Notes under the pieces: generated by a model | Seen by the model: only the letters and a program-made list of their open reading frames with translations | What the model was told of the DNA's origin: nothing | Database searches by the model: none | Shown here: positions 2,001 through 45,520 of the stretch, in pieces | Layout of the letters: each line of letters opens with the position of its first letter | How positions within the stretch are numbered: the first letter of the stretch is position 1 | Position numbers and translations under genes: made by a program | From: Chitinophaga pendula | GTDB lineage: Bacteria > Bacteroidota > Bacteroidia > Chitinophagales > Chitinophagaceae | Assembly: GCF_020386615.1 (NCBI RefSeq) | Contig: NZ_CP077769.1 | Span: 7,599,440 to 7,663,439 of the forward strand | Reading direction: 5' to 3' | Length of the DNA stretch: 64,000 nt

Positions 2001-2161
2001 GTTTAACAGACCTGATATACCGGCTGAGAAGTGCCGGCGCGAAATTAGAGTTAGCCGCAGGTAACATTAAGTTGCATATGCAGACACCGACTGCATTGCC
2101 TGCAGTGCTGCTGGAAGAAGTGCGGATGCGCAAACAGGAGCTGTTGGAATGGTTGGCTTCT
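1997..2161 (+). other. TubC-type N-terminal docking domain
   Basis: The first ~55 residues have the pattern of the TubC docking family: an N-terminal helix (LTDLIYRLRSAGAKL), a short strand segment (IKLHM), then a charged helix with the conserved RKQELLEWL end. Such domains bind a short C-terminal linear motif of the upstream synthetase. The upstream protein ends in NTILI, a fitting partner. It is the only TubC-type docking domain in the window. Confidence 0.85.
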
Positions 2162-7588: not shown

Positions 7589-7622
7589 AAGATATCCCCA
7601 ATCTATCTTAATAGTCCCTGTT

Positions 7623-16600: not shown

Positions 16601-18434
16601 GCCTTTCCCCGGCAGTAGTGGTGAGATCAGCCTGGTGGCCTATATTGTTTCTCCTGCAGGGGATCAGACCAGCGTATATAGTGCTTATCTCCGGCAATGG
16701 TTGCCCGCTTATATGATTCCTGCGCATTTTATATACCTGGAGCAACTGCCGCTTACGCCAAATGGGAAAGTTGATTATTCGACACTTCCGCTGCCGGTTT
16801 TTACCACCATGCAGACCGATGATACGGCGCCTGTGTCATCGACAGAAGCTACACTACTTGAAATATGGAGACAGATATTTAACAATAACGGATTGTCCGT
16901 CCGGGATAACTTTTTTGAACTGGGAGGTCATTCACTTACAGCTATCAATATTGTAGCCGCGATAGCCCGGCGGTTAAGTGTGGAGATTGATCTCGCGTTG
17001 ATATTTGCTCATCCTACGGTAGCTATGTTGGCTGCTGTAATGCCGGCATCTCTTACTGTCTCTGTGCCGGAACAGGTGTTGCCGGCTACGGAGGAGGCCT
17101 TCCCGCTATCATATGCGCAACAGCGTCTTTGGGCAGCCAGCCAGCTTGATATGACCGGCACAGCTTTCCTGGTACCGCTGGCTTTCAACCTGGACGGTAT
17201 TGTAGACAGTAATCGGTTACAGCAGGCCTTCGATAAAGTAGTACAACAGCATGAAAGCCTGCGAACTGTGTTTGTAAGTAATGATGACCAGGTACAACAA
17301 CAGGTGTGGCCTGTGGAGAGGAGTAGTTGCCAGCTCTTGCTGGAGGAGATGTATTATAGCAGCGAAGAGGAAAGGGCGGCTTTTATCCGGGAGGAGACAG
17401 CCAGGGAGGCATCGACACCATTTACGCTCTTGGCAGGACCCCTGTGCCGCGCAAAACTCATTACGCTGGAAGCTACCTCTCATCTGTTGCTGATCACTTT
17501 ACATCACCTGATTGTAGATGGATTATCCTGTGAAGTACTGTTACACGACCTGGTAGCACAATACCTGGAAGATCTGCCAGTAACGGAAAGACAATTGCAG
17601 TACCGGGATTTTGTACACTGGGAATCACAACGTAATGATGATACAGCTGCAGCATATTGGCAAGCCCGTTTTCGGGGATACCGGGGAGCTTTGCAGTTAA
17701 GGACAGATTTTCAAGCCACCGCTTTGCCAACATATGATGGGAAGAAAATACACCGGATCATCCATGATGACCTGCCTTTCCGTATAAAGGAGATGGGAGC
17801 GGGCGTGACCGGATTCCAGCATTTTTTTGCCTGTCTCAATATATTGCTCTACAGGTATACCGGTCAGCAGGATATCGTGATTGGTGTGCCTTTTACCGGA
17901 AGAGACCATACTGCCTGGAAATGTATTATCGGATTCTTTGTTAACATGCTACCGCTACGTACTGACTTTAGCAGCTGCGATCGGTTTGACCAATTGCTGG
18001 AATTAGTGAAAGCAGATATGGTGGCAACTTTCCGTCACCAGTATTTCCCGCTTGATAAAATATTACAGCAGCAGATAGGGCAACAGGAAACGACTGCGTT
18101 AGTTCCCTATCGCGTAGGCTTCACCTGGCATCCTGACTTACAGGAGCTACCGGTGGATAAACTGCCCTTCCGTATTGATTCCTATGATGTACCATTAGCA
18201 GATGCGAAAGCAGATTTATGGTTTCATGCAGGCATGGATAATGGGCAGACAGCGATTACCCTGGAATATAATACTGCTCTTTTCGAAGAAGCAACTGCCT
18301 GCCTGCTGGCAGATTGTTTCGTTGAAATAATCACACAGACCCTGCAGCAGCCTTGTATAAGGTTCGAAGAGTTGAAATTAAGTATGAGCCCGCATTTGCA
18401 GGCCCGACGATCTATCAGCGACTTTAATATCTGA
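7623..18434 (+). CDS. NRPS: C-A-T-C-A-T-C-A-T-C, third residue Leu
   Basis: About 3603 aa from the ATG at 7623; an in-frame ATG at 7575 would add 16 unconserved residues and overlap the dioxygenase by 14 nt. The first C domain (HHILMDGW at 147; LTPLQEGILFH; FINTIPLRV) is of the DCL type, fitting the D-Asn donor. A1 (TSGSTG at 612) has pocket DAKHSGTIN, not assignable. T1 Ser is 1001. C2 has HH at 1190. A2 (1671) has pocket CVQYIAHVV, with Cys at the Asp235 position and TPNG instead of TPKG. T2 Ser is 2065. C3 (2253) reads HHIIGDADS. A3 (2723) has DAWFLGNVV, the classic Leu code. T3 Ser is 3104. A final full C domain (HHLIVDG, 3294) has no A domain after it and ends in the tail SISDFNI. It should act on Thr loaded by the next protein. 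Confidence 0.96.
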   Translation: MNNVASPNKKIQNIYELTPLQEGILFHTLYQSSGSYIVQTWYTLRGKLDVQILKQSLDVLFMRHEALRTAIVFEKVKQPLQVVMAERQIDFRYEDLRGELPSARPVHIDACLKADREKGFHLTRDSLLRLTVCQEEKEEFRFLWTFHHILMDGWCVEILSNELEHIYFALYSNQQVKLSPPKPYSHYIKWLRQHQAVADTGFWKKYLEGCNKPTGIPRYLLNEQKGMRHREISVDLPAEQVSQLQQLVRRQQVTLNVFMQTLWGILLGKMNGAHDAIFGIITSGRPENLEGVDQMIGLFINTIPLRVSTTDTDSFASVMARIQQHTRDLLLHQHDSLAEIQAIAGADTSLIDHVLIFENYPLAKELETATETRDEGFVISNVAFYDYTHYDFSIVIMPDASSVTIKFEFNELVYDTAYITAVAEGYMSLLEQVLSNPQVALQELCLPVPRQVVATPLWSTDAGTMADVIRIQSRLTPAATALVAGTDTYSYKWLETAAESLADYLLYEKQVTAGERVAVLAGRTVWSVVAMLGIWKAGAVYVPIDQHYPAERQLWMIKDAGINLILTTQPAITWADTYDCLHLHATASCLNRVVSGQLPAVASHQAAYIIYTSGSTGRPKGVIISHVSLAQLIAALKEAMVHQADWQYLLLSPLSFDASLKNILVPLSIGATLHLIEDSRDIPGLGKYISAHGIHAMHTAPAVWEELLHHIPAAQLSSLCCISSGGEAMSRRLAQSLLSCFTGKNIYNTYGPTEITINATVHRVTEQTLLFNTPPIGKPLSGYEVYILNDRKEPQPAGISGEICIGGTGLAMGYVQEEDAAGRYINGLPSLTQRLYRTGDKGVRLPDGEIIFQGRLDDQIKIRGYRIDPVEIDQHLIRFPGVQQVFTTGLKDTGADNYLVTYYTTNAPVERTALRQFLERHLPGFMIPATFVEVPLLALDINGKINRKQLPDPRKEHFFSRKVYVAPATKTEQQLTDIWQRLLGIAEIGTGDNFFEIGGHSLKATRLMTAIQSEMGTTIRLKDIFEYPTIGQLAAHIREADTGKALPAITTAPTQDYYALSHAQRRIWVLCQFKEDNAAYNMPYAAVIRGALQPAVMEAAITLLMNRHESLRTVFISVNGIPYQQIRVDMPAPILFEDLTGLDEAERQQQAAHLFEQDAESPFDIERGPLFQFHLLKMKETEYLLIVVIHHIISDGWSQGILGNELITIYNSLHSGLTPVLPAIPVQYKDYSHWHNALIEAGHFSDQEHYWLDKLKDKPNGIVLPADFSRQSVQTFNGKRITFSLGTTVTESLNRISSEQQATLYMTLMSIVNIFLYKYTGQQDIILGLPIAARKREELHGTIGFMVNTIIFRLLLQPDDKFPDFLQQVKKELLESYEHQDYPFDMLVEKLDMERNLSQSPLFNVMVAYNNTDLTEDDLELTDTVSYEYEQADDFNMSKFDLIFFIQQGITDVVVSLEYNSDLFEEATAARMANNFRHLCEKICLLPNLALRQLNVVRPEEEQQLVQTFNDTYKDYGAQNIIDLFEVAALQYADREAVRFGKVSVSYRVLNEQANRLAHHLIDKEGVRPGDIIGLALERSVNMIITLIAIVKTGAAYVAIDPGYPVERIRYMIQDSGVSILFADRQEMMLEQGYDGKIILVEEAMAHCHTAPDSNPTPDIDPESSLYIIYTSGSTGTPNGAVLSHGLLANLIIWQLQDSGIDPGLSCLQFTSVNFCVSFQEIFSTLCSGGLLHLIGEVERQDIEYLAGFLSQHAIEVLYLPFSYLNFLFNEPDSALHSHHFSLRHIITAGEQLKITTGLRRFLTKYPHIKLHNHYGSSEMHVVSYYTMDVNTLDDKAVPPAGKPVGNTAIYILDESKNIVPVGTWGEVCISGSYEVKGYLNNAALTAARLFDHPLYSKNSHRLYCSGDIGRRLADGNIEIKGRKDGQIKIRGFRVEPGEVETVIFSYRHTKDAVVVVKEDGRGQFVLLAYVVLLGGSIQELKEYISGTLPGYMVPRFIQLEVLPLMPNGKVDRAALPEPPESELVTRFVAPRNEKESRLTVLWKDILGVTTVGVLDNFFELGGHSLKATRLVSSIYQSFGQKLELINVFKNPTIEALAALLQEDGIGAPQRLPAAPRQEFYPVTPEQHRLWLMEQLNNTGTAYNMPLMAKISGELDYDRLLAALIALMRDQEILRTAIVRVDGTPVQQILSMEQVKCPLDFHDLHLLPEKDATREKLTRELFDTRFDLTTAPLFNSRLIRTESHTYFLLINLHHIIGDADSCALLLDEWQQRYNQGVTDKITTTTYKDYAYHLAQKIATGDTSGHAYWLRQLDGQLPLLEIPVDFSRPVRRSFAGTKQQHVFSAQSWEALRLLARQQHCSQFALLMTLVKVLLHKYSGQTDLVVGGVVSDRTNSDMEQLIGLFLNTLPFRTKLSGIAPFTTLLQDVNHTVLEGMEHAWYPVDRVMDELQIQAQPGRLPLFDVVISYEDLQHTVAACATGGLHIDLVPLESDTSKFDLAFHFEASSEGLLLTLAYNTGIFSSERMARLLLHFDHLVAQIIADPAQQVNTLGILTSGEQQQILEVFNTPDISAPSGTLVEAWMQTLNKHAGAQALVSGFKQYTYQMLHDQATRIAACLQEQYEVKPGDIVGVMTGKSFLYVAALLAIIRTGAAYLPIDPDYPEERIRTVFHRSGAALLLMDEATAYSTGALPAVRQVQLEEAALYEGRLTPVDRQPESITYVIYTSGSSGQPKGVPVTDAALLKLCSWSSNTFGMDEHTKAVLYAGIGFDAGVWELWPVLLAGGKLFIPDERIRMNIPALQRFLVDKKISHCFLPTPVFEVLCRQEDNQGLSDTLFLTGGDKLKYYNRNLRAYNNYGPAEAAVVATAYSLQDYREGMEHIPIGRPLPHHRVYILDDGQRLLPVGMTGEIAIGGPYITNGYLDEPALNERHFVPDPYYPGQRLYLTGDRGYWQEDGNIIFDGRKDDQLKIRGKRITLGEIEQSLQRHPDIHTCVVRPFPGSSGEISLVAYIVSPAGDQTSVYSAYLRQWLPAYMIPAHFIYLEQLPLTPNGKVDYSTLPLPVFTTMQTDDTAPVSSTEATLLEIWRQIFNNNGLSVRDNFFELGGHSLTAINIVAAIARRLSVEIDLALIFAHPTVAMLAAVMPASLTVSVPEQVLPATEEAFPLSYAQQRLWAASQLDMTGTAFLVPLAFNLDGIVDSNRLQQAFDKVVQQHESLRTVFVSNDDQVQQQVWPVERSSCQLLLEEMYYSSEEERAAFIREETAREASTPFTLLAGPLCRAKLITLEATSHLLLITLHHLIVDGLSCEVLLHDLVAQYLEDLPVTERQLQYRDFVHWESQRNDDTAAAYWQARFRGYRGALQLRTDFQATALPTYDGKKIHRIIHDDLPFRIKEMGAGVTGFQHFFACLNILLYRYTGQQDIVIGVPFTGRDHTAWKCIIGFFVNMLPLRTDFSSCDRFDQLLELVKADMVATFRHQYFPLDKILQQQIGQQETTALVPYRVGFTWHPDLQELPVDKLPFRIDSYDVPLADAKADLWFHAGMDNGQTAITLEYNTALFEEATACLLADCFVEIITQTLQQPCIRFEELKLSMSPHLQARRSISDFNI
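12180..13690 (+). other. Atypical A domain, Cys at pocket position 235
   Basis: A domain 2 of the NRPS at 7623. The motif normally read as FDxxxQ reads FCVSFQE, so the Asp that holds the substrate amino group is Cys. The rest of the code (VQYIAHVV) matches Pro-activating domains. The A3 loop is TSGSTGTPNG, Asn replacing the conserved Lys. The A7, A8 and A10 motifs (NGKVDR) look normal. A near-identical pocket occurs in the NRPS/PKS protein at 24283. Confidence 0.85.
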
Positions 18435-18487
18435 TCATTTTCCCCTTTTGTATAGTTCCCTAATCTTCAATTACATCCCTTAGTTAT

Positions 18488-19210
18488 ATGCACATGATGT
18501 CTGAGAGCACCCAAAAAGCCGGGCAACAGTATTGGATGAGTAAGATCGCCCATGCTGACAGTTGTTTTCCTGCTCGTCCGGAAGCCAACGCTGTTTATCG
18601 ATCTGTTGACTGTGAGTTATCGCCGGCATTGGTTAATGCGGTACGGGTATTAGGTAAGGCGGATGCACTGACCGAGCTGGCCGTTTATCTGGCTTTTTAC
18701 GGGCTGTTATTACGTAAATACTTTAGTACAGCCAGCGTACTTGTTGCAAGTAGCGCACCGGAGCCGGGGCATGCAGCTGGCAGTGTGGTGTTCTTCTCCC
18801 TGGCAACTGATACTCGCAAAACCTTACGGCAATTACTGCTGGACGTAAAAGGCGATATTGAAGAAGTGCTGCTTTACCAGGATAATGAACTGGAAGTGTT
18901 GCAGACATTATTTGCCAATAATAACATCCCGTTGGCTCCGGCATTGGAATTTGGTTTTACGGTGGCGGACCACCAGGCAGTGCCGTCGTTTGCTGCCACG
19001 TTGGCTATTCGTATAGATAAATCCGCGCATGCTTTTGAACTAGTGTATAGGGAAGATGCTTTTACAGAAGCCCTGGTGCGGTTGATCGGAGAAAGCTATA
19101 CCCTCTTGCTGGAGGAGGGGCTGAAAGATCTTATGCAGGAGTGCGGTAGTATTGGCTTCCTGCCTGCAGCATTACAGGAAACGCTGTTAACCGAGGCAGG
19201 AGGGAAAGGT
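18488..19210 (+). other. N-terminal half-C (C-lobe only) at split junction
   Basis: The segment before the Thr A domain has features of the second half of a C domain: YW near residue 17, a TELAVYLAFYGLLLRKY stretch, then a final strand-helix part before the C-A linker. It lacks the N-lobe and the HHxxxDG site, so it cannot catalyse condensation. The complete C domain sits at the end of the preceding protein. Inferred role: a structural platform for the A domain and/or a docking partner for the upstream protein. Confidence 0.8.
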
Positions 19211-22200
19211 AAAATATATAAAGAGGAAGAAACGATCGTCAGTCATTTTGAACAGATCGTCGGTAAATTCCCCTTTAATACGGCTGTAAGTATTGATGGA
19301 AAGACACAGACCTATGAAGAACTGAACCGTCTGGCTAATATCGTCGCTCATCAGCTGTTGCAACACCAGGAGGTACGAGCGCAACAACCGGTGGGACTGT
19401 TGCTGGGGCGTACAGCCTGGATGATCCCGGCAATATTGGGTGTACTAAAATCAGGGGCTGCCTATGTACCGTTGAATCCTGATGATCCTGCAGAACGTAG
19501 GGCATTGATACTACGGGATGCCGGCGTAAAACTGGTAATATCCGATAGTGGTTTGCAGCAGGAGTTGCCTGCTGATATACAGGTTCTGATGGTCCCCGAT
19601 GTATTCGAGCAGGTTTCCGATAGCCCTGCTGGCAACCCTGATGTGTCTGTTGTGCCAGCCGATACTTGTTATATTATCTATACTTCAGGTACCACCGGTC
19701 AGCCTAAAGGCGTGAAGATCAGCCACGCCAATGTGATTCAACTTTTCTTCAATGAAGGATTTCCTTTTGACTTTGATGAACAGGACTGCTGGACCCTCTT
19801 TCATAATTATAATTTCGACTTTTCTGTATGGGAGATATTCGGTGCTTTGTTTTATGGCGGCAAAGTTGTGATTGTTCCTCAGAATGTTTTTTATAATACT
19901 GCAGAGTTCATCCGTTTGATGACCAAGGAGCAGGTAACCGTATTGAGCCAGACACCTGGTGTATTTTCTCTCCTGATGCACACGATACTGGAAATGAAAG
20001 TACCTCCGGTATTGTTCCTGCGTTATGTGATCTTTGGTGGAGAAGAATTGAAACCCGGTAGCCTGAAAGCATGGGCTACTGCTTTCCCGCATATACAGTT
20101 GATCAACATGTATGGCATCACGGAGACGACCGTGCATGTCACCTTCAAACGGTTACAGCAGGAGGATATCGTCAGCCCGCTTAGTAACATAGGCCAGCCG
20201 TTGCAGCCGGTGAAAGTATTTGTACTGAATGAAGATCAGCAGTTGCTGCCACCAGGCGTAACCGGTGAACTGTACATCGGTGGAGCAGGTGTGGCAGCAG
20301 GATATGTGAATAACCCCACGCTCACCGAAGCGCGTTTTCCTGTACTATTCGGACAGCGGTTGTATCGTTCTGGCGATATGGGGAAAAGACTGGAGAACAA
20401 AGACCTGGTATATGCCGGGAGAAAAGATAATCAGGTGAGTATACGTGGATACCGGGTGGAGATAGGTGAAGTGATGATGGCATTCCTCCAGCATACGGCG
20501 GTAAAAGATGTATTGATATTACCTGTTGCAAATCAGTTCAGCCAGATGGAACTGGTTGCTTTTATTTTGCTAAAAGAGGAAATATCCCTGGAAGATATTA
20601 CGACAGCTGTCGCATCACGTCTGCCCCGGTATATGATGCCTTCTCGTTCGCATATCCTCACCAACAAGCCATTAACCCGGAATGGCAAGGTAGATACGGC
20701 GTCCCTGGTAGCGTTGGATGAAAAATCCAGGGAAGACCGTTCCCTCATGCAGCCACGTAATGTGGTGGAGCATGAATTGTATGCGATTTGGAAAAAACTG
20801 CTTAAAACAGAGCGTATTTCTGTCGGAGACGATTTTTTCGCAATCGGCGGCGATTCCATCAAAGTGATCAAATTGCTGAACCAGGTGAACCAGCATATTT
20901 CCAGGGTGGTGGAAATACAGGATATGTTTGAGCATAAGACTATTCGTAGCCTGGCAGGTTATATACTACAGACAGATAAAGAATCCGGCAGCAACATCCT
21001 GCGTGCACAGGTAGAATTACGTTTGCGTAAACTAAAAGCAGATGTTACCGGTTTACCAGGCTTGCCCGCCGGGACAGAAGATATATATCCTATGAGCGAC
21101 ATTGAGGCAGGGATGATTTTTCATAACATATATGCTGGTAGTGCAGGTGTATACCATGACCAGTTTGTGTATGAATTCAGTGAGCCGGCATTTGATGTGG
21201 CAGTTTTTGGGAAGGCGCTGAACTTTATGGTAGAGAAACACGCTTTGTTACGGACATCCTATCATATGGATGCCTATTCAGAGCCACTACAGGCAGTACA
21301 TCCTGCGACTGACTGTTTCGATCGTTTGTTGTTTGAAGATATCGCTCATTATGACAGTGGGCAACAACAGCAGCATATCGAGGAGTATATGAAGCAAGAT
21401 CGTTCGTTAGCTTTTGATGTCACGTTACCAGGTTTGTGGCGGATGATCATATTCCGCCTGGGCACGGAAGAATACTTGTTACTATGGGTGTTCCATCATG
21501 CTATTCTGGATGGATGGAGCAACGCTTCCTTTATCACCACACTTACAGATACCTATCACCGGCTTTTAGCTGATAGTACTTACCGTCCGTCCGCGCTGGC
21601 TGCTTCCTATCTTGATCATGTGATCGATCAGCAGGTGGCCAAAAATGATATGCAGCTACGTCAGTACTGGAAAGATCATCTGCAGGGATACCAGCGGTTG
21701 CCACTGCCTTTTAAGAGTACAGAGATACTTAATTTCAATAAGGCCGAAAGCCGGGTGCATTACAGCTACATCGAAGGAGTGCAGGCCGACCGTATTAAAC
21801 AGTTCGCCCAGCAGTTGCAGATGAACATTAAAGAACTGCTATTCGCAGGATTTCTTTACCTGCTGAGGATTGCGTGTGATCAGGAAGATATTACTATCGG
21901 CCTAGTATCGCACAACCGGCCTGCCAAAAAGGATGGAGATCAGGTATTGGGTTGCTTCCTTAATACGGTACCTTTCCGTATCCGCATACCAGATACTGAC
22001 CTGCATGTACCTTCTTTTCTGCAATATGTGCGGGAGCAATATCAACGATCCAAACAACATGACCGCCTATCTTTTATGGAGATCATCAAAGATGTGGAAG
22101 AGAAAGGTGCCTACTTCAATCCCGTCTTTGATGTGAAGTTCGACTTCGTAGACTTTTATGTTTACGGAGAAGTTAGCGAGCATGCACGGGCATCCCGGAA

Positions 22201-24271: not shown

Positions 24272-24282
24272 ATCATTTGATT

Positions 24283-32787: not shown

Positions 32788-32798
32788 TTCCCCCGATC

Positions 32799-34433
32799 AT
32801 GAATACAGCATTAGATGTCGTATTGATAGGCTATAATGAAACGCCTTTTGAAAACTATCTGTCCACTCTCAGATCATATGGTGAAGATGCGGAGGCTTAT
32901 CGCGATCTGAAGACCAACTTCTTCGAGGTAGAAGGTAATAACTACACTTACCTGGATCTGCTGAACAAGCTATCGGATATGGAATTAAAATCCTGTGATA
33001 TTCCTAATCTGGCAGCGGTATACCTGAGTCATTTTCTTCTTAAGCGTGGTTTGCAGGTGGATTTTGTCAATCTGTTCCAGGAAGAAAAGGATAAACTCCG
33101 CAGCTTGCTGGAGAAAAATCCTGTCTGCGTAGCCATTACTACGACCTTTTATGTCATCAACTTACCGGTTACAGAAATGGTGAGATTTATCAGGTCCTGT
33201 AATCCACATGTGCCGATCATAATAGGAGGAGTACTGGTGTCTAACCACTATAATGCTTATGGAAAGGAAGACTTTTTCTCTGCTTTACGTGACATGGAGG
33301 GAGACATCTTTGTACTGGAGTCGCAGGGAGAACAAACACTATATAATCTGGTGACGCGTCTTAAAAATCAGCAGGATCTTAATGAGGTGAAAAACATCAT
33401 CTACCGGCAGGAAAACGGGGAGTTTACAATGACCGAACGTGTTATTGAAAATAATTCACTGGATTCGGAAGCGATAGACTGGTCACTTTTTAAACACCAT
33501 GACCTGGGTAGCACCTTACAGACCCGTACGGCCAGGAGCTGTGCCTTTGGCTGTGCCTTCTGTGGTTATCCTGAACGGGGAGGCCCGTTAACACTGGCGA
33601 GTATAGATACGATAGCAAAAGAACTGGAGACCATGCGTGCCTTGGGTAATGTGAAAAACGTAGTTTTTATCGATGATACTTTTAATGTTCCCAAAGCCCG
33701 GTTTAAGGAATTCTGTCGTATGCTGATAGACCGACAGTTTGATTTTAACTGGTTTTCCTATTACCGATGTGATCATGGGGATGAAGAAGCACTGGATCTG
33801 ATGGCGGCGAGCGGATGCAAAGGTGTGTTCCTGGGTATTGAGTCCGGCTCGCAGGAGATGTTGGAAAAAATGAATAAGAGAGCAAAGGTCACCAATTACG
33901 AAAAAGGGATCAAGAACCTGAAGGAACGAGGTATTATGACTTTTGCGTCTCTGATCACAGGGTATCCCGGAGAAACCGAGGCGACCATCAGAGAGACAAT
34001 CGATTTTATCAAAGGCAATAAGCCAGACTACTGGCGGACGATGCTGTGGTATTGCGATCCGCTGACGCCCGTGTATCAGAAGAAAAAAGAAGAATTCCGG
34101 ATCAAAGGGGAAGGATTCAAATGGGAGCACTACTCGATGACTAGTATGGAAGCGGCAGATTACATACACGAGATCTTCCTGACCATTAACCCGGACGAAT
34201 CGATCTGGCTGCCGCAATATTCTTTTGATTTCTGGGTTATTCCATATCTCTTGGGTAAAGGCTTTTCCTTCTCTTCTTTTAAGTCTTTTATGCACCTGGC
34301 ACAGCAGGCACTTGCGCTGGAGATCGCCAGTGTACATCCCGATATGAAAACACATCGCCAACAGCACCTGTTCGACAGGATCCGTAAGATATTTGAACCC
34401 AATGTTGCTGAAGAAAGCAAATTCCTCATCTGA
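32799..34433 (+). CDS. Radical SAM enzyme with B12-type N-domain, PhpK-like
   Basis: 544 aa from ATG 32799; a TTG at 32784 inside the previous stop is unlikely. The radical SAM cluster motif CxxxCxxC is C248-C252-C255 (CAFGCAFC). The N-terminal ~200 residues form a Rossmann-like segment (VAITTTFYV, VPIIIGGVLVSNH) of the cobalamin-binding type without the DxHxxG signature. The opening (LIGYNETPFENYL, GEDAEAYRDLK) recalls the PhpK family, whose founding member is a P-methyltransferase in phosphinate antibiotic pathways; this resemblance is from memory. No phosphonate genes are visible, so methylation of a carbon in the peptide is more likely here. It lies 11 bp after the PKS-NRPS and 12 bp before the next NRPS, so it is clearly co-transcribed. 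The C-terminus SKFLI resembles the docking tails of the neighbouring synthetases. Confidence 0.92.
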   Translation: MNTALDVVLIGYNETPFENYLSTLRSYGEDAEAYRDLKTNFFEVEGNNYTYLDLLNKLSDMELKSCDIPNLAAVYLSHFLLKRGLQVDFVNLFQEEKDKLRSLLEKNPVCVAITTTFYVINLPVTEMVRFIRSCNPHVPIIIGGVLVSNHYNAYGKEDFFSALRDMEGDIFVLESQGEQTLYNLVTRLKNQQDLNEVKNIIYRQENGEFTMTERVIENNSLDSEAIDWSLFKHHDLGSTLQTRTARSCAFGCAFCGYPERGGPLTLASIDTIAKELETMRALGNVKNVVFIDDTFNVPKARFKEFCRMLIDRQFDFNWFSYYRCDHGDEEALDLMAASGCKGVFLGIESGSQEMLEKMNKRAKVTNYEKGIKNLKERGIMTFASLITGYPGETEATIRETIDFIKGNKPDYWRTMLWYCDPLTPVYQKKKEEFRIKGEGFKWEHYSMTSMEAADYIHEIFLTINPDESIWLPQYSFDFWVIPYLLGKGFSFSSFKSFMHLAQQALALEIASVHPDMKTHRQQHLFDRIRKIFEPNVAEESKFLI

Positions 34434-34445
34434 TTATCCTTTTTT

Positions 34446-35195
34446 ATGCCGCTTACATTACAGGAGTTTAATACACTTATTACCCAGGACGTATACCAGC
34501 AACACTATCATTTTTGGCTGAGCCAGTTTGCCGGACTACAGGAATACACTGTTTTTGAAGAGATGGGTCATGCCGCCCCGGAGCAGGATGCCGATCAACA
34601 GCATTATCAGCTGGAGCTGCCATCGTCGGTGATACGAACAATGGGAAAGCTTACCGATAGTGAAGATGGGCGCTTTACCATTCTCAGTGCTGTATTCAAC
34701 CTTTTACTGTCAAAATATACCGGTAAGGAAACGGTGCTGATCAAAACTCCTTTGCACAAAGGGAGCCTGGTACCAACAGCGCCCATGTTTGTGGAGGAAG
34801 TACTCTTACAGACTGATTTTACAGACATGAAAACACTGCGTGATCTGATCCTTGCCGGAAAAAAGGCGATCACCGAAAGTTACCAATATCAGCAGTTCCC
34901 GGTGGACTTGTTGATGGACAAAGAACGGCAACTGAATTATTATCATATTACCAACGTTTTTTTATATGACCCTGCGCTGCACCGCTATGAAAGTAACATA
35001 GATACTTACGACCTCAGTGTAGCCATGATACCGGGTGCATTGAGCACACAATTGAACGTACGCTATAACGGCCGGTGTTACAGTCATACATTCATCCGGC
35101 GGTTTTTCTCCTGTTATCTGCAGTTGCTAACCTACCTGGATAATGTCAATATTCCGCTGGAGGATATGCGTATACAGCAGGAGGATGCGTATCAG
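34446..35195 (+). other. N-terminal half-C (C-lobe only) at split junction
   Basis: The ~250 residues before the Asn A domain include YHFWLSQF, LSAVFNLLLSKYTGKETVL and QQFPVDLLMD, all landmarks of the second half of C domains. The first half with the HHxxxDG site is missing. The upstream synthetase ends with the complete C domain. The strong LLSKYTG and FPVDLL matches make this the clearest of the three half-C segments. Confidence 0.85.
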
Positions 35196-38100
35196 TCTAC
35201 CTTGCAATCGCTGGCTTATGGGGCAGTGACGGCATGGCAGGGCGAACAGTTATTCCCGGCACGTTTTGCAGAAGTGGCGCGGCAGTATGCGGATCGCACC
35301 GCATTGGTTGCCGGTCGTCAGCGCTATACGTATCGTGAGCTGAATGCACAGTCTGCCGGACTGGCCATGCTATTACAGCAACAATATGGTTTGCAGGCCG
35401 GAGACAAAGTGGGAATCTGGTTGCCGGCATCCGCACACTTTATGCTCAGTGTATTGGCTGTCATCCGATCGGGTGCTGCATTTGTACCGGTAGATCCGTC
35501 TGAAGGTATCAGGAAGACGGCTCATATATTCAACAATGTGGGAGTACGGCTGGTGATCACAGATGCTGCTGGTGCAAAAGAAGAAGGGCTGGAGGGTCTG
35601 GCAGTGATGGATATCACAACGCTCCCTGCCGTTATCCCACCTGCCGACATCAATTGGGCATCGGTGACCGCTGACGATCTGGTATATGTTATGCATACCT
35701 CCGGCACAGAGGGCGTATCAAAAGGCGTGGAGATCACGCATGGTAATATGTTCAACTACCTGTCCTGGGCATGCAGCTTTTATTTCAGTGCGTGCAGACC
35801 GGATATGGCATTGTTTACCTCTCCTGCATTTGACCTGACAATAACCAGTATGTTTTGCCCGCTCCTGCTGGGAGGATGTATATATGCTTATTCCAACCTG
35901 GAGCCAGATACCGCGTTATTAAAAATATTCGAAGCAGATAGTGCGGTGTCTGCGGTTAAGATGACACCTTCTCATATCGATATGCTGCAACATGCGGCGC
36001 CGGATATCCAGACGCCGGTACAACTGGTAATCGCTGGTGGAGAGGAGTTGGGTGCCGATCATGTCCGATTTCTGCGACAGATCAATCCGGAGATACGGAT
36101 ATTCAATGAATATGGCCCCACAGAAGCAACAGTGGGTAATGCGATCAAAGAAGTAACTGCTGTCAGGGCTATTACCATCGGACGTCCGATTGATAACACG
36201 TCGCTCTTTATTATGGATCGCTATAATGACCTGTTGCCTATCGGAGCAGTAGGAGAGATATTTATCGGCGGTGCAGGTGTAGCTAGGGGATATATGAACC
36301 TGCAGGAACTGACGGAAAAAAAGTTTGTTCCCAACCCTTACGCACCAGGAGAACGCCTGTACCGTACCGGTGATATGGGCTGTTTTATGGAGAATAGAGA
36401 GGTTTTTTTCCTGGGAAGGAGAGATGGACAGGTCAAGTATCATGGTCATCGGGTAGAGACCGGAGAGATCGAATATGCCATCAGAAAATATCCGGGTATC
36501 CGTCGTTGTGTGGTGAATAAAATCAAACATCAAGAAGAAGGTGATATCCTGGTCGCATATATTGTATCGGCAGAGCGAATAGATATTGCAGCATTAAAGC
36601 AACATTTAAGTAACTACCTGGACAAGGCGGTGATACCTGCCTATTATATGCCCATTAAAAAGATACCACTGAGCCTGAATGGTAAAGTAGATCGCCGGGC
36701 TTTGCCTCCGTTTGTAGCCGCCGAACAACGTAAAGGAGGTACGTCGCCCGCCAGCCTGCTGGAGAAAAAGATGGTCGCTATCTGGGAGGATATACTGATG
36801 AAGAAGCACATCCTGATGGAAGATGACTTCTTCGAGCTGGGAGGACATTCACTGAAAGCGATACGTATCATCGCCAGAGTAAAGAAAGAATTTAATGTAC
36901 AACTCATGTTGCGTTCTTTCTTTGATAATTCTACTGTGAAAGATGTATGCCGTTTGATTGAAATGCATGCAGTAGCACAATATACCGGCATTCCCAGCGT
37001 CGCAGATCAGGAATATTATCCGGTTAGTTTTTCACAGCGGAGATTTTGGGTGCTGGAGCAGCTAACGGAAGGGAAAGGTGTTTATAATATGCCATTGGCA
37101 TTGACTATCGAAGGCTCTTTGGATATATCAGTACTGAATCGTACCTGTCACTATTTGTTGCAAAGACATGAGAGCCTGCGTACCACCTTTAAAAAGCGAG
37201 CACATGATATCGTACAGCGGGTGTGGCCGGCAGCGCAACTGCCTTTTGCTGTTGATTACAGGGATTACAGCGAATACCCGGATAGTGAATCAAAGGTGAA
37301 GGAGGATATAGCGCAGCTGATCATACAACCTTTCGATCTGTCCGTCTTCCCGCTTATAAGGGTGTATGTGCGGAAGATAAGTGAACAATCGTATGTACTG
37401 TTAATGGTCATTCATCATATTGTAGCGGATGGTGTGGCAGTAGAAATATTGTATAACGAAATGTTATCGGTATATGACGCGTTGCTGAATGATCGTATAC
37501 CAGTACTGCCAGCGTTACCTATTCAGTTTAGGGACTATGCTGCCTGGCAGTCTGATGAAATCGGCCGTGACAGTCGCCTGCGGGATTACTGGTTACAGCG
37601 TTTTGTCGGGGAGCTACCGCTGCTCGAAATACCATCTGATCGCCCCCGCCCGCTGGTACAAACGTTTAATGGCAGTAATGAACGTATCATGATCGATAGC
37701 CATGTTGCGCGAGAGTTGAAGGAGCTGAGTATGCGGAATAATGTATCGCTGTACGTAGTATTGCTTGCTGCCGTGAAAGCGATGTTGTTCCGTTACACTG
37801 CACAGGAAGATATCATTGTCGGTTGCCCTGTAACAGGCAGGGAACATCCTGACCTGGAGCATCAGATAGGATTGTTTATAAATACATTGCCGTTGCGTAC
37901 CGAATGCCTGGCAAAAGACACCTTCCTTTCATTGGTCGACAAGGTAAAAGAAACGACTATATCTGCTTTTGATCATCAGCAATATCCATTTGATAAACTG
38001 GTAGATGAGTTGGGGCTACAGAGAGATACCAGCCGTTCCCCGTTATTTGATGTAGCTGTGGCATTGCAGCAGGAAGAAACGATAGCAGCGCAAGAAGAGC

Positions 38101-41100: not shown

Positions 41101-44100
41101 TGCAACAAGTAAAACATACTACGGTAGATGCTTATCAGCATCAGGATGTACCATTTGAAAAAATAGTGGAAACGCTGGTCAGGGATCGTGATCTCAGCCG
41201 AAGTCCCTTGTTCCAGGTGATGCTGGTACTTCAGAATACGTTGGGGGATGCAGCAGACAATGCAGGTGACACCACGGATGTGAACATCCGCTCTTACTCT
41301 TATGAGCATACCACTGCTCAGTTTGACCTGAGTCTGAATATAGCAGAGACAGCAGAAGGGCTGGCTATCAATGCGGAATATTGTACGGACCTCTATTCAC
41401 GCGGTACCATAGACCGGCTGCTGGTACATTATACGCAGTTATTACAGGCTATTGTAGTGAATGCAGATCTGCCGCTGCATGAACTTGCCATGCTGACATC
41501 CGATGAGCTGCAGGAGCTGTTGTATACCTACAATGACACCGTTGTAGTGCATGCACAGGGTAACATAGTACGGCTTTTTGATGAACAGGTGCTATTGCGG
41601 GCATCCTATCCGGCAGTAGTGATGGAGGATGAAGTACTGAGCTATGAAGACTTGAACAGGGAGGCTAACAAACTGGCACATCTGCTGGCAGTAAGGGATG
41701 CAGGGCCTGGATCCCTGGTGGCAGTGTGTGTACCTCGTAGTCCCAGGCTGATTATTGCCATATTGGCCATATTGAAGGCTGGTGCAGCCTATGTGCCTGT
41801 TGACCCCGATCTGCCGGAAGATCGGATCCGATATATGCTGACAGATAGTGGCGCACAGTTACTACTGACCACATCCACTACAAAGCTGCCTGATGGTTTG
41901 TCTTTCGGCCGCCAAGTGTTGCTGATGGACCGTGATGGCTATCAGGCTGCGTTAGGTGATGATAATCCGGGCATGGATATCCATCCAGGCAGCCTAGCGT
42001 ATGTTATCTATACATCAGGATCTACAGGGCGGCCTAAAGGGGCGATGATAGCTCATCATTGTATTTACAATATGAGCATGGCCTGGAGAAATCACTACCA
42101 GTTAAATGAGCAACCACCCGTTTTGTTGTCAGTAGCGAGTGTATCTTTCGACGTATTTACCGGGGATATCTGCCGCGCATTGCTCAATGGCGGTACGTTG
42201 CTGTTGGCACCGGCATCGCAACGTTTTGATGTAGGTTACCTGTGCGATACGATCAACCGGCATCAGGTGACTATACTGGAATCTACACCAGGGCTGGTCG
42301 TACAGCTGATTCGGTACGCACAGGATGAAATGATCGATTTTCCCTCATTGAAGATACTGATAGCAGGCAGTGACATCTGTAGCGTTGCAGATTATCAATA
42401 TCTATATGATTATTGTCATCCGGCCATTCGACTGTTAAACAGTTATGGCATTACCGAGACTACTGTAGATATCTCGTATTTTGAAGGGCCCCTGTATGAA
42501 AACGCCATAGTGCCGATAGGGCGTCCTATGGATAATATAGCATGTTATATTCTGGATGAATACCAGCAGTTGCTACCCGCTGGTATACCTGGAGAATTGT
42601 ATATCGGCGGTGCTGGTGTAGGTATCGGTTATGTGAATGATGATGCATTAAGTGCGCAGCGGTTTATCACTCATCGTCTGGGGGATCAGGAGAACATCCG
42701 GTTGTATCGTACGGGAGACAAAGCCAGGTGGTTGCCGGGTGGCATGCTGGAATGTCTTGGACGGATTGACCAGCAGGTGAAAATCAGGGGCTACCGCGTA
42801 GAACCCGGAGAGGTGGAGACCGTATTACAGCAATGTAAAGGTGTTCGGCAGGGTGTGGTCGATGTAATGGAGGATAATGCCGGTACTAAATTATTGGTAG
42901 GGTATGTTGTACCAGATATAACATACGACCGGGATGAGGTGATTGCCGGACTTTCTGCCGTATTACCGGACTATATGGTGCCTGCGCTCTGGATGAGGCT
43001 GGATAGCCTGCCATTGAATATAAATGGTAAAGTAGACCGTAAAGCCTTGCCTCAACCGGATATGACAGCGATGCATTCTCAGGATTACGCCGCTCCTGTC
43101 AATAAAATGCAGGAGATGCTGGTGGAGATCTGGGAAACGGTATTAGATGTACGGCCAATAGGTATCCGGGATAATTTCTTTGCGATGGGAGGCCATTCAC
43201 TGAAAGCGATCAAGTTAATGTCTGCTATCCGGAAGGAAATGAATATGCAGATGCAACTGGCAGATATTTTCCGCCATCCAACTATTGAAACATTGGCCGC
43301 CGTTATAAAGATGGATAGCCGTCAGCATTATACAGCGATCACCATTGTGCCGGAACAGCCGCATTATGTACTCTCATATGCACAAAAACGGCTGTGGGTA
43401 TTGCATAAGATAGAGCGCCAACTTTATCACTATAATTTCCCGTATGCATATACGATAAAGGGAACATTGAATGTGCCTGCGTTACAAAATGCATTCCTCG
43501 GGATGGTCAACCGGCATGAGATACTACGTACGGTGATCGTAGAGGTGGATAACGAACCCAGACAACAGGTATTGAGCCCGGCAGATCCTGTATTTGCGAT
43601 GAGTAATGTGGATCTGTCAGCAACTCCGGCCAACTATGAGGTAGCACAGCGGATGATTGAAAAGGAGACCTATCATGTATTCGATCTTGCGGTAGCGCCT
43701 TTAGTAAGAACTACCCTGTATCATCTCGGAGAAGATGAATACCTGTTATTTATCAACCTGCACCATATTATTTTCGATGGATGGTCCATGGATATATTTA
43801 TGGATGAACTGTATCAGTTGTATGATATATCAGTAGCCGGTGAGCAGTCTGCATTGCCGGAATTGAAGATACAGTATAAGGATTATGCGGCCTGGCAACA
43901 TACCATGCTGGAAGGAGCCGCATTACAGGCCCTCGAAAACTACTGGTTACAGCAAGTGTTTCGTAAGCCTTACACGTTGCTCGAACTACCGGTGGACTAT
44001 CGTAGGCCGGCGGACCGAACATATCAGGCGGCTCAGTTTAATATACAGTTGACAGCAACTTGTCATGAAAATATGAAACGGTCGAACGAACAGTATGGTA

Positions 44101-44753
44101 CGAGTATGTTCATGCAGGTATTGTCCTGCTATTATGCTTTGCTGTACCGTTGTTCCGGCCAGACTGATATAGTGGTGGGCACGCCGGTAGCCGGTCGTGA
44201 TCATCCGGATCTGTATGGACAGGTGGGTTTTTACATTAATATGCTGTCACTACGTATCAGCTTCAGTGGTGAAGATACTTTTGATGCCCTGTTAATGCAA
44301 GTGAAGGAATCCTGTCTGGGTGCTTTTGATAACCAGCTATATCCATTCGATATGCTGGTAGATAAACTGAAGGTAAAACGCGAGCTGGGACGCTCCACAC
44401 TATTTGATGCAGGTATCACCTGGGATGCGGCACATACCAGACCTGATGATATAGTATACGAGCCGTCAGGCGATCTTGAGATCATACCCTTTGGCACAGG
44501 CTTCAATGTGATCAAAGGTGATCTGTGGATATACGGAGCGGAAAATAATGGCGACCTGCAATTGGTACTGCAATATAGCACGGAGCTATTTTCCGAGGAG
44601 AGGATGCAATTGATGAAAGAACGTTTTTTACTTTTCATGGAGCGACTGCATAACAACCGTCACATGCGTATCTGTGATATCTGGAATGATATAGAACAAC
44701 AAATTAACCCGGTTACCAGGGAAGAAGAATTTACGCTGGAAATTAATTTATAA
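34446..44753 (+). CDS. NRPS: half-C-A(Asn)-T-C-A-T-C-A(Orn-like)-T-C
   Basis: 3435 aa. Residues ~15-250 are again a C-terminal C-lobe without HHxxxDG. A1 (418) has an unusual A3 loop, TSGTEGVSKG, and pocket DLTKIGEVG, an Asn code. T1 Ser is 802. C (HHIVADGVA, 990). A2 (1470) has pocket DGFFFGVTF, nearest to Ile codes such as DGFFLGVVYK. T2 Ser is 1861. C (HHIVSDGWS, 2044). A3 (2523) has pocket DVGELASVD, close to the Orn/Dab codes DVGEIGSID and DVGEISSID, so a basic residue is likely. T3 Ser is 2918. A complete terminal C (HHIIFDGWS, 3106) has no A domain after it. The tail is FTLEINL. Its upstream partner is the C-terminal C domain of the PKS-NRPS; its downstream partner is the half-C protein at 44790. 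Confidence 0.96.
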   Translation: MPLTLQEFNTLITQDVYQQHYHFWLSQFAGLQEYTVFEEMGHAAPEQDADQQHYQLELPSSVIRTMGKLTDSEDGRFTILSAVFNLLLSKYTGKETVLIKTPLHKGSLVPTAPMFVEEVLLQTDFTDMKTLRDLILAGKKAITESYQYQQFPVDLLMDKERQLNYYHITNVFLYDPALHRYESNIDTYDLSVAMIPGALSTQLNVRYNGRCYSHTFIRRFFSCYLQLLTYLDNVNIPLEDMRIQQEDAYQSTLQSLAYGAVTAWQGEQLFPARFAEVARQYADRTALVAGRQRYTYRELNAQSAGLAMLLQQQYGLQAGDKVGIWLPASAHFMLSVLAVIRSGAAFVPVDPSEGIRKTAHIFNNVGVRLVITDAAGAKEEGLEGLAVMDITTLPAVIPPADINWASVTADDLVYVMHTSGTEGVSKGVEITHGNMFNYLSWACSFYFSACRPDMALFTSPAFDLTITSMFCPLLLGGCIYAYSNLEPDTALLKIFEADSAVSAVKMTPSHIDMLQHAAPDIQTPVQLVIAGGEELGADHVRFLRQINPEIRIFNEYGPTEATVGNAIKEVTAVRAITIGRPIDNTSLFIMDRYNDLLPIGAVGEIFIGGAGVARGYMNLQELTEKKFVPNPYAPGERLYRTGDMGCFMENREVFFLGRRDGQVKYHGHRVETGEIEYAIRKYPGIRRCVVNKIKHQEEGDILVAYIVSAERIDIAALKQHLSNYLDKAVIPAYYMPIKKIPLSLNGKVDRRALPPFVAAEQRKGGTSPASLLEKKMVAIWEDILMKKHILMEDDFFELGGHSLKAIRIIARVKKEFNVQLMLRSFFDNSTVKDVCRLIEMHAVAQYTGIPSVADQEYYPVSFSQRRFWVLEQLTEGKGVYNMPLALTIEGSLDISVLNRTCHYLLQRHESLRTTFKKRAHDIVQRVWPAAQLPFAVDYRDYSEYPDSESKVKEDIAQLIIQPFDLSVFPLIRVYVRKISEQSYVLLMVIHHIVADGVAVEILYNEMLSVYDALLNDRIPVLPALPIQFRDYAAWQSDEIGRDSRLRDYWLQRFVGELPLLEIPSDRPRPLVQTFNGSNERIMIDSHVARELKELSMRNNVSLYVVLLAAVKAMLFRYTAQEDIIVGCPVTGREHPDLEHQIGLFINTLPLRTECLAKDTFLSLVDKVKETTISAFDHQQYPFDKLVDELGLQRDTSRSPLFDVAVALQQEETIAAQEEHDAPLQISRYGLSAGGSKFDLLFYFSESDAGIWLSINYNTDLFDRSRIQQMGMHLHQVMNTVVVKADTQIGSIPLLTTQEQTAILHYGAMQEQQQVEGIITCFDREAAFHADKIAIYCKGQHWTYRQLMHDADQLALYLKTKYASQLKVPVAILFGRSYEMIVSILAILKSGTAYVPLDPAAPASRNEFIVQDAGCLLVLTGEQQVTAEWDLLEAVSVCSTGACRDDISVISTGMLSLRPCFPFDPAYIAYTSGSTGTPKGILVEHKSVVRLVKDTNYVTFHADDRVLQLSNYVFDGAVFDIFGALLNGATLYIPTEEILSSDKMLADYITDHAINITFMTTALLNTLADVQPQCLAGLDKVFFGGEQVSVAHVRKLLPFRKNEVVFVHVYGPTENTTFSTFYEIRQLPADAVTIPIGRPLSGTSAFILDAAMQLVPQGVIGEICLGGTGLAREYVNNPALTRSKFVRSNLVTEGLLYRTGDLGYWDAQGNIVFKGRIDRQVKIRGHRVEPREIEQVLTGTGKIREAFVTDYRDADQVIALAAYYTADQAVEPALLRSQLEGSLPGYMMPAVFIYLDHLPLNRNGKIDRAALPAPQPAGDSRQEDIIAPSTTRERQMLGIWQEVLGRDRISVADNFFWLGGHSLLAMRMLGMIRQALGAELNIRDVFLHPSISQLCARIDQLTDTTVLPPVTRMERPALIPLSFAQERLWFIDQLQGSTQYHMPVLLQLEGDVDVAALTQAFRQLVNRHEVLRTVIKAVNGQPYQQVMGTDGFELVNYTEECSGDALSLRVAAEISQPFDLAEDHMIRAALFCTGDSSWLLLIQVHHIVSDGWSMGILEKELSALYAAANIGEDAGLPALEVQYADYALWQRSCYSSEVLARKLAFWERQLRDVTPLELPSDYARPAVQSLRGAVTACVIDRSLTDRLLQLSLEEDVTLFMTLLAAFNVLLHRYSGQHDITVGAPVSNRQQLTLEPLIGFFVNTLVLRSNLEGNPSFRNFLQQVKHTTVDAYQHQDVPFEKIVETLVRDRDLSRSPLFQVMLVLQNTLGDAADNAGDTTDVNIRSYSYEHTTAQFDLSLNIAETAEGLAINAEYCTDLYSRGTIDRLLVHYTQLLQAIVVNADLPLHELAMLTSDELQELLYTYNDTVVVHAQGNIVRLFDEQVLLRASYPAVVMEDEVLSYEDLNREANKLAHLLAVRDAGPGSLVAVCVPRSPRLIIAILAILKAGAAYVPVDPDLPEDRIRYMLTDSGAQLLLTTSTTKLPDGLSFGRQVLLMDRDGYQAALGDDNPGMDIHPGSLAYVIYTSGSTGRPKGAMIAHHCIYNMSMAWRNHYQLNEQPPVLLSVASVSFDVFTGDICRALLNGGTLLLAPASQRFDVGYLCDTINRHQVTILESTPGLVVQLIRYAQDEMIDFPSLKILIAGSDICSVADYQYLYDYCHPAIRLLNSYGITETTVDISYFEGPLYENAIVPIGRPMDNIACYILDEYQQLLPAGIPGELYIGGAGVGIGYVNDDALSAQRFITHRLGDQENIRLYRTGDKARWLPGGMLECLGRIDQQVKIRGYRVEPGEVETVLQQCKGVRQGVVDVMEDNAGTKLLVGYVVPDITYDRDEVIAGLSAVLPDYMVPALWMRLDSLPLNINGKVDRKALPQPDMTAMHSQDYAAPVNKMQEMLVEIWETVLDVRPIGIRDNFFAMGGHSLKAIKLMSAIRKEMNMQMQLADIFRHPTIETLAAVIKMDSRQHYTAITIVPEQPHYVLSYAQKRLWVLHKIERQLYHYNFPYAYTIKGTLNVPALQNAFLGMVNRHEILRTVIVEVDNEPRQQVLSPADPVFAMSNVDLSATPANYEVAQRMIEKETYHVFDLAVAPLVRTTLYHLGEDEYLLFINLHHIIFDGWSMDIFMDELYQLYDISVAGEQSALPELKIQYKDYAAWQHTMLEGAALQALENYWLQQVFRKPYTLLELPVDYRRPADRTYQAAQFNIQLTATCHENMKRSNEQYGTSMFMQVLSCYYALLYRCSGQTDIVVGTPVAGRDHPDLYGQVGFYINMLSLRISFSGEDTFDALLMQVKESCLGAFDNQLYPFDMLVDKLKVKRELGRSTLFDAGITWDAAHTRPDDIVYEPSGDLEIIPFGTGFNVIKGDLWIYGAENNGDLQLVLQYSTELFSEERMQLMKERFLLFMERLHNNRHMRICDIWNDIEQQINPVTREEEFTLEINL

Positions 44754-44789
44754 AGGCACTGCCGTCTTCTAATATATAAGTGAGGTAAT

Positions 44790-45520
44790 ATGATATATCA
44801 ACAACAAGCCACCTTTGAATACTGGGCAGACCTGGTTTTGACGCATCGTGAAAAAACTACTTACAGGAAGTATACTGATCTGCCGGTGATGCAACAGCAG
44901 GTGACCTTTGGTTTTAATTCAATACTGGAAGAAAGATGGCATGCTGTTACAAAGGGTGATGAGTACGCCGAATTTGTGATATTGATATCTGGTATTTTTA
45001 CACTCCTGGGTTATTATCAGCATCGTCCGATGTTGCTGGCATGCCCGGGCATACGTTATAAATCGGAGCCTCCCACCCCGGATCAGCTACTTTTTATACA
45101 ATATAGTACCGGTAAAGAAGATACTTTCCGGGAAGTCGTAAATGCGATGAAGCAACAGTTGAAATTGCTGTTAGAACATCGCAGGTATGATTTCGGTAAG
45201 CTCCTGACATTATTAAAGGAGAACTATGAAGAGAAAACAGCAGACCTGTATGAAGTGGGAGTAGTGCATCACTCTTTACATCATCCGACCGCATATCATG
45301 CAGACAGGTTTGCCTTATTATTCATGTTTGGGCAGAGAAATGGTCTGCATGAGATAACCATCTCGTATGACAGCAACAGCTATACGACTGACCTTATCCA
45401 TCGGATAGGGACTCAGTTGCCGTATCTGCTGCAACAGGTATTAGGAGACGCCGGAAGACCTTTGCAGCAATTATTGCCTTTAATCCCGGAAGAGCTGGAT
45501 GAGTTGGCAATCCGTTTTAA
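44790..45520 (+). other. N-terminal half-C (C-lobe only) at split junction
   Basis: About 245 residues before the first A domain, with FEYWADLV at the start, a long helix FVILISGIFTLLGYY where C-lobes carry the LLxxYTG helix, and ISYDSNSYTTDL near the end as in the final C-domain strand. No HHxxxDG catalytic motif occurs; a VVHHSLHH string lies at the wrong place and lacks the Asp. It is more eroded than the segment at 34446 and follows a protein ending in a full C domain. Confidence 0.75.

Follow-up and report, generated by a model that had tools for sequence, protein, structure and literature searches.

In Chitinophaga pendula, nonribosomal peptide synthetases (NRPSs) are repeatedly divided inside a module, between the condensation (C) domain and the adenylation (A) domain that it serves. 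At these points a complete C domain closes the upstream protein, while the downstream one starts with only the C-terminal lobe of another C domain, followed by A and thiolation (T) domains. This lone lobe (hereafter, half-C) occurs three times in the window analysed here, which comprises 64,000 nucleotides of contig NZ_CP077769.1 (positions 7,599,440 to 7,663,439) and forms the final 64 kb of a single-contig genome of 7.66 Mb. The split arrangement is real and recurrent, and it is probably adaptive. The half-C is likely to be a dedicated docking acceptor derived from the C-terminal lobe (C-lobe) of a condensation domain.

The junctions and their recurrence

The original prediction placed these junctions at 18434/18488, 32787/34446 and 44753/44790, each with a full C domain followed by a protein with a C-lobe-only start (no HHxxxDG) and then A-T, and both the ends of the open reading frames (ORFs) and the Pfam Condensation profile (PF00668, 456 positions), run on the last 560 amino acids of the three donors, agree with this description. 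At the second junction, the predicted domain layout holds, and the two proteins are separated by a gene for a B12-binding radical SAM (S-adenosylmethionine) enzyme that the prediction does not mention. The window half-Cs match profile positions 187-455 only, although two of the three matches (29.1 and 25.3 bits) lie slightly below the Pfam cut-off of 30.6. These N-terminal segments match only the second half of the profile, and they lack the two lobes and the HHxxxDG motif that characterize a Condensation domain.

17067..18392, + strand: junction 1 donor, C-terminal full C domain of the 7575-18434 protein, with HHLIVDG (PF00668 3-446 of 456, E 8e-83)
18393..18431, + strand: junction 1 donor tail, ending in SISDFNI (translation, tail statistics)
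18488..19195, + strand: half-C 1, a lone C-lobe with the latch and floor loop shortened, then A-T (PF00668 191-455, E 5.6e-7; alignments)
31402..32736, + strand: junction 2 donor, C-terminal full C domain of the 24277-32787 protein, with HHIAGDG (PF00668 3-445, E 6e-93)
32737..32784, + strand: junction 2 donor tail, ending in LKISFNF (translation, tail statistics)
32784..34433, + strand: cobalamin-binding radical SAM enzyme in the gap that separates half-C 2 from its donor; the enzyme itself ends in SKFLI, which fits the loose tail rule given below (Pfam Radical_SAM E 6e-24, B12-binding E 6e-8)
34446..35210, + strand: half-C 2, then A-T (PF00668 187-450, E 4.8e-15)
43326..44681, + strand: junction 3 donor, C-terminal full C domain of the 34446-44753 protein, with HHIIFDG (PF00668 2-443, E 1e-98)
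44682..44750, + strand: junction 3 donor tail, ending in FTLEINL (translation, tail statistics)
44790..45512, + strand: half-C 3, then A-T (PF00668 304-451, E 7.5e-6; AlphaFold2 mean pLDDT 77; Foldseek matches to C-lobes)

The donors with HHLIVDG, HHIAGDG and HHIIFDG are read as C-type rather than epimerase-type domains, according to a motif rule that we take to separate both classes.

Four more such junctions are present elsewhere in the same genome, in the stretches fetched from it. A survey of NRPS N termini for isolated C-lobes, which the prediction had suggested, was carried out with a model of 21 half-Cs (15 picked by ORF geometry and the others from one homology search) that was run on 79 genomes of the genus; stretches were then taken around the best matches and around ordinary C-lobe matches, and their ORFs were called. 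In the fetched stretches, 42 half-C N termini without an N-terminal lobe (N-lobe) were found in 22 Chitinophaga genomes, forming 33 clusters at 50% identity, a number that is not a frequency because many stretches were chosen for their high-scoring matches. The four further junctions of the same genome, and the total of 42 in the genus, indicate that the architecture exceeds chance. Identification of half-Cs by score has its limits. Leave-one-out hidden Markov models built on six half-Cs (five training sequences each) do not separate them from internal C-lobes, ranking them 6th to 73rd among the C-lobe matches of the genome stretches. The 21-row model separates better, and half-Cs that are neither in the model nor close orthologs of its rows score 53-172 bits, overlapping with C-lobes (up to 146 bits). 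Due to this overlap, a match was counted only at an ORF start lacking an N-lobe.

In all 42 cases the preceding NRPS protein on the same strand ends in a C domain. The donor lies at most 300 bases from the half-C in 32 of them, with other genes in between in the remaining 10, and the half-C directly precedes an A domain in 39. The claim that half-Cs lack HHxxxDG extends to the whole survey, as HHxxxD is found in none of the 42 proteins within their first 240 residues. Conversely, the upstream C domain conserves HHxxxD in 32 of the 33 cluster representatives (in 27 of these as complete HHxxxDG); the remaining one is truncated by the end of its stretch.

Two wider draws of genomes, read at their top-scoring loci, have also been analysed. 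In a phylum draw of 395 genomes, no half-C N terminus appeared among the 29 best loci outside the genus, while an order draw of 396 genomes, with 29 loci read, yielded two, the first from a different genus of the same family (G827) and the second from a different family (G555); all remaining loci of this draw belong to Chitinophaga itself or hold full or internal C domains. In the case from the other genus (L247) the half-C follows a C domain with the tail KEDIVFNF, which fits the tail rule given below, and in G555 a C domain with the tail GNFSF is followed by a monooxygenase gene and then by the half-C.

A shortened C-lobe under purifying selection

AlphaFold2 models of half-C 3 (mean predicted local distance difference test score, pLDDT, 77) and of a relative fused to its donor (88) resemble the C-lobes of solved C domains and synthetases, with best Foldseek template modelling scores (by query) of 0.66 and 0.83, respectively, although the input alignment was composed of C-lobes, which biases the fold in that direction. 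A YW-like pair starts at residue 11-32 in 40 of the 42 half-Cs, which locates their start near the lobe boundary.

When 33 half-C representatives were aligned with 83 full C-lobes, of which 33 are upstream, 35 internal, and 15 N-terminal, two internal shortenings emerged. The segment between the LQN strand and the KFDL strand (latch segment) spans 7-12 residues in 33/33 half-Cs versus 18-36 in 83/83 full C-lobes, and the segment around ELExxI (floor segment) is reduced to two residues or fewer in 31/33 half-Cs versus 0/83 full C-lobes. Because the earlier half-Cs supplied the model that detected the later ones, the 15 picked by geometry alone represent a cleaner set; among them, the latch is short in 15/15 and the floor in 13/15. 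The latch and the floor loop are named as crossovers between the lobes of the C domain in PMC11546977, and, judging by the strand order in the AlphaFold2 model of the fused half-C, they correspond to the two shortened connections. With both of them shortened, little is left of the parts that hold the missing N-lobe.

These proteins are highly divergent, with 13-27% identity to half-C 3. Nevertheless, the ratio of nonsynonymous to synonymous substitutions (dN/dS) is 0.12-0.23 in the half-C of six ortholog pairs (dS up to 1.1), while the next A domain shows 0.05-0.15; another three pairs were saturated at silent sites. A tree of 117 C-lobes places all 33 half-Cs on one side of one branch, with weak support (ultrafast bootstrap, UFBoot, 75; SH-aLRT 97; 74% of bootstrap trees), in a topology with long branches and a bootstrap that had not settled. 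A single origin of the half-Cs is thus favoured, not proven. The original prediction had interpreted each half-C as a C-lobe remnant kept at its own break; their grouping apart from the 83 full C-lobes fits this less well and suggests one family rather than separate leftovers.

At G000 7579977 (L031 to L032), the protein behind a C-ending protein with the tail FTADFQF begins with a C domain that is divergent and of full length. This domain has a short latch segment (11 residues) and a floor segment that is present (6 residues); it falls among the half-Cs in a quick tree and outside them in a careful one, and this unstable placement was not used. At L168:3-2498 (- strand), L169:3-6689 (- strand) and L181:16931-19519 (+ strand), the half-C leads into a full C-like domain, which has HHxxxDR where other C domains have HHxxxDG, and then into A.

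Donor tails and the proposed docking

The donors of the window end 13, 16 and 23 residues past the C domain, with SISDFNI, KISFNF and TLEINL. Half-C donor tails in general are amphipathic, mostly hydrophobic at positions -5, -3 and -1, and usually carry N, S or D at -2, IxFNF being a typical ending. A loose tail rule (hydrophobic residues at -1 and -3) fits 28 of the 33 half-C junctions (clusters), versus 4 of 23 other C-ending proteins (p 5e-7), a comparison set obtained by merging 31 tails at 60% identity in which a few members are probably epimerases by motif. A more specific contrast is provided by 20 junctions of the same genus in which a C-ending protein is followed by an NRPS protein that starts with A (at residue 3-32) without a half-C. 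After reducing them to 18 distinct tails, and to 16 by merging look-alikes, only 2/16 fit the rule (p 1.5e-6 against 28/33). Five of these 20 junctions are directly adjacent, none of which fits, and the other 15 have larger gaps with room for genes. Some of the tails at junctions of this kind (L197-L198, L036-L037, L057-L060, L194) look helical (F...[IML]...F) and may represent a further type of docking.

The preferences of the donor tails also differ from those of subunits that end in T (or in A, where T was not recognised) before a C domain with an N-terminal extension of 50-120 amino acids, which were taken as putative beta-hairpin docking (betaHD) pairs. F is found at -1 in 19/33 half-C donors versus 1/52 of these T-ending tails, and N, D, S, T or Q at -2 in 29/33 versus 9/52; the T-ending tails show L or I at -1, charged or aliphatic residues at -2, and polar ones at -5. 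Moreover, the three ortholog pairs with 53-59% identity between their half-Cs retain the final 4-5 residues of the tail unchanged, while the linker differs. Finally, a natural single-chain fusion, in which a C domain is joined through RIEVPVEV to a half-C and an A domain, exists in C. vietnamensis (L222), with an ortholog in G053. Such C-half-C-A fusions, with the full C first in the chain, are located as follows:

L222:4584-8000, + strand
L171:8332-16701, - strand

From these data, we infer a contact between tail and half-C that condensation would require. The donor, ending with a C domain whose catalytic motif is complete and with a short amphipathic tail, would add this tail to the lone C-lobe of the next protein, or rest it on that lobe; the C domain may thereby be kept beside the A-T that it serves, so that the module cut between C and A would be reassembled. 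This proposed mode resembles that of the short C-terminal motifs that add to beta-hairpin docking domains. The claim that the half-C is functional is supported by purifying selection, by the common shortening of latch and floor, and by the C-ending protein found upstream in 42/42 cases. Between the two roles that had been put forward for it, docking is favoured over that of a platform for the A domain, due to the matching donor tail, the natural C-half-C-A fusion, and three half-Cs (from the clusters G027/G050 and G004) behind which a full C-like domain carrying HHxxxDR takes the place of the A domain.

Several observations weigh against docking. The association between tail and half-C is one of neighbourhood and co-inheritance, not of contact, and clusters at 50% identity are not wholly independent events. 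Other genes separate donor and half-C in the 10 cases mentioned above. The T-ending tails obey a broadly similar hydrophobic-x-hydrophobic rule, and the donor tail is short. The rule is missed at 5/33 half-C junctions (FDNY, EESF, SSR, DDFS, FSDI); the tail FTADFQF stands before a divergent full-length C domain, not before a half-C; and for the tail IDIDFDF of G050 the half-C predicted downstream was not found on its strand in the approximately 21 kb read. With respect to the structural models, the strand-like stretch of the natural fusion is disordered (residues 1-15 with pLDDT below 50), while in a read-through construct of junction 3 the tail pairs in a hairpin-like manner with translated intergenic sequence, at low confidence, and takes no confident position on the half-C. 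Neither model thus gave the tail or the fused stretch a confident placement. A MAFFT alignment of single chains with a full C and a half-C placed the half-C rows on the first C-lobe and was unusable for folding.

An unlikely alternative is that the half-C has no docking role and simply keeps the contact between C-lobe and A, allowing the A domain to fold and work at an N terminus. Its position directly before A in 39/42 cases would fit, as would work cited in PMC7253712 on the modulation of A-domain selectivity by the C-terminal subdomain of C. However, the half-Cs that precede the HHxxxDR domain and the five directly adjacent C/A splits without a half-C (of the 20 in the genus) argue against a mere A-domain platform, which also leaves unexplained both the upstream tail and the 42/42 association. 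A platform role can nevertheless coexist with docking.

Genes between donor and half-C and the place of the junction among docking systems

Every gene of at least 150 amino acids between donor and half-C was counted by rule, with families defined at 40% identity. Single genes in this position encode B12 radical SAM enzymes (in the window, in G009/G078, and in G050, the latter with a B12-binding match below the Pfam cut-off), a TauD dioxygenase (G066/G073), and a luciferase-like monooxygenase (G555). All of them end in hydrophobic-x-hydrophobic (7/7 genes; 5/5 families, three of B12 radical SAM, one of TauD and one luciferase-like), versus 4/31 control genes between other synthetases (2/19 families; p 5e-4 for the comparison with 5/5). 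The lone tailoring genes with this kind of tail are:

window 32784-34433
L063:3837-5579
L257:1919-2983
L175:11248-12261
L212:6796-8478

Paired genes behave differently. They consist of a PALP gene with an ornithine cyclodeaminase gene, or of a class-III aminotransferase gene with a second, unclassified one, and fit the tail rule in only 1/8 rows and 1/4 families (the aminotransferase, in one of its two members), which leaves 6/9 families overall versus 2/19 controls (p 0.005). The genes sbnA/sbnB are described as a common 2,3-diaminopropionate subcluster of these bacteria in PMC9248904, and the PALP and cyclodeaminase pair may be this subcluster, probably acting on free amino acids.

The X-domain of glycopeptide synthetases recruits P450s. 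By analogy, the half-C might mainly recruit trans-acting tailoring enzymes to the following A-T, with the upstream C using the same site. The tails of all five single-gene families speak for this idea, which must still be considered improbable given the small numbers, the poor fit of the paired genes, and the absence of room for any gene at 32/42 junctions. Docking of the upstream C domain can be extended in a bolder direction, as the fit of all the single genes suggests that on-line tailoring enzymes, in five families, may share the dock. In that tentative extension, the half-C would be a docking hub of a new class, an excised lobe of an enzyme fold that has lost both loops by which its partner lobe was held. 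It would read a C-terminal code (x-hydrophobic-x-F-N-F at the very end) distinct from that of T-ending subunits of the same genomes, and would bring together at a single A-T the upstream C domain and trans-acting tailoring enzymes of the B12 radical SAM, TauD dioxygenase and luciferase-like monooxygenase types.

It is very improbable that the half-C is a neutral relic, decaying after a gene split: its divergence and the leave-one-out ranks could be expected of a relic, but dN/dS values, two internal shortenings common to nearly all members, grouping apart from full C-lobes, and an invariable position behind a C-ending protein are opposed to it. Completion of the half-C in trans by an upstream N-lobe, to form a second active C domain, can be dismissed almost entirely, since despite the start of the half-C near the lobe boundary the donors end in complete C domains in which no spare N-lobe is seen, and the latch and floor loop that join the lobes are shortened.

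The surroundings of the junctions in the window are organized as follows:

1997-6727, + strand: C-A-T-E synthetase (E, epimerase)
between 1997-6727 and 7575-18434, + strand: cupin/JmjC gene
5315..6649, + strand: contrast junction, C-terminal domain of epimerase type (HHLVVDEISW) in the 1997-6727 protein, with a full C and no half-C at the start of the synthetase that comes after it (7575)
7575-18434, + strand: three C-A-T modules, then C
18488-24271, + strand: half-C-A-T-C-A-T
24277-32787, + strand: ketosynthase-ketoreductase-acyl carrier protein-C-A-T-C, a polyketide synthase/NRPS protein
34446-44753, + strand: half-C-A-T, two C-A-T modules, then C
44790 to past the window end, + strand: half-C-A-T and further modules

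The single epimerase-like C terminus of the window (6727) thus precedes a full C, not a half-C. In other stretches (L168, L169, L170, L172, L173, L178, L179, L181) a different order recurs, with a C-ending protein with almost no tail, a gene whose product starts with MCGICG (presumably asparagine synthase-like, by its motif), a small A-T-C protein, and then the half-C.

No description of a C / half-C-A-T architecture was recognised in one open-access library, for the terms searched and judging mostly by titles and the starts of abstracts, with preprints and most subscription papers lying outside the search. X-domains, which are full two-lobe domains, have no condensation role and bring another enzyme in. 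The half-C is similar to them (PDB 4tx2, 4tx3) in the apparent use of a C-domain fold without a condensation role. Unlike them, it consists of one lobe, is N-terminal, stands behind a C-ending protein, and does not reach the full C fold. COM domains join a protein that ends in E or T to one that begins with a full C. Here, in contrast, the donor is a C domain and the acceptor a half-C. COM domains and the TomB adaptor (PMC11186497) are non-catalytic elements pairing NRPS subunits, as proposed for the half-C, although the TomB adaptor is a four-helix bundle resembling a peptidyl carrier protein, located before a full C.

A close parallel to the proposed tail docking is the betaHD-SLiM (short linear motif) pair, in which a short C-terminal motif with a hydrophobic face binds as a beta strand to a folded N-terminal acceptor on the next subunit; SLiM-type motifs are reported at the ends of oxidases as well (PMC9113145). 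The half-C system differs in its acceptor, a C-lobe of approximately 240 residues, mostly before A, instead of a small beta-hairpin, and in its donor, which is a C domain whose tail preferences are not those of the T-ending subunits of the same genomes. Incomplete C domains before the first A-T of a protein are also known as C* in initiation modules such as that of thermoactinoamide ThdA (PMC7253712), where C* opens the assembly line and is called probably inactive, whereas half-Cs occupy internal junctions, all 42 of them behind a C-ending protein.

Cut sites and orthogonal docking pairs are both required for the engineering of NRPSs. The C/A boundary is usually regarded as a rigid platform. 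Nature, however, seems to cut repeatedly between C and A, mending the break with a recycled C-lobe and a tail of approximately five residues. Automated annotation may take such a half-C for a broken C domain. If binding is confirmed, the half-C and its tail would provide a portable pair for splitting modules at C/A, a tail with which tailoring enzymes could be added in trans, and a rule by which the assembly order of Chitinophaga clusters could be read.

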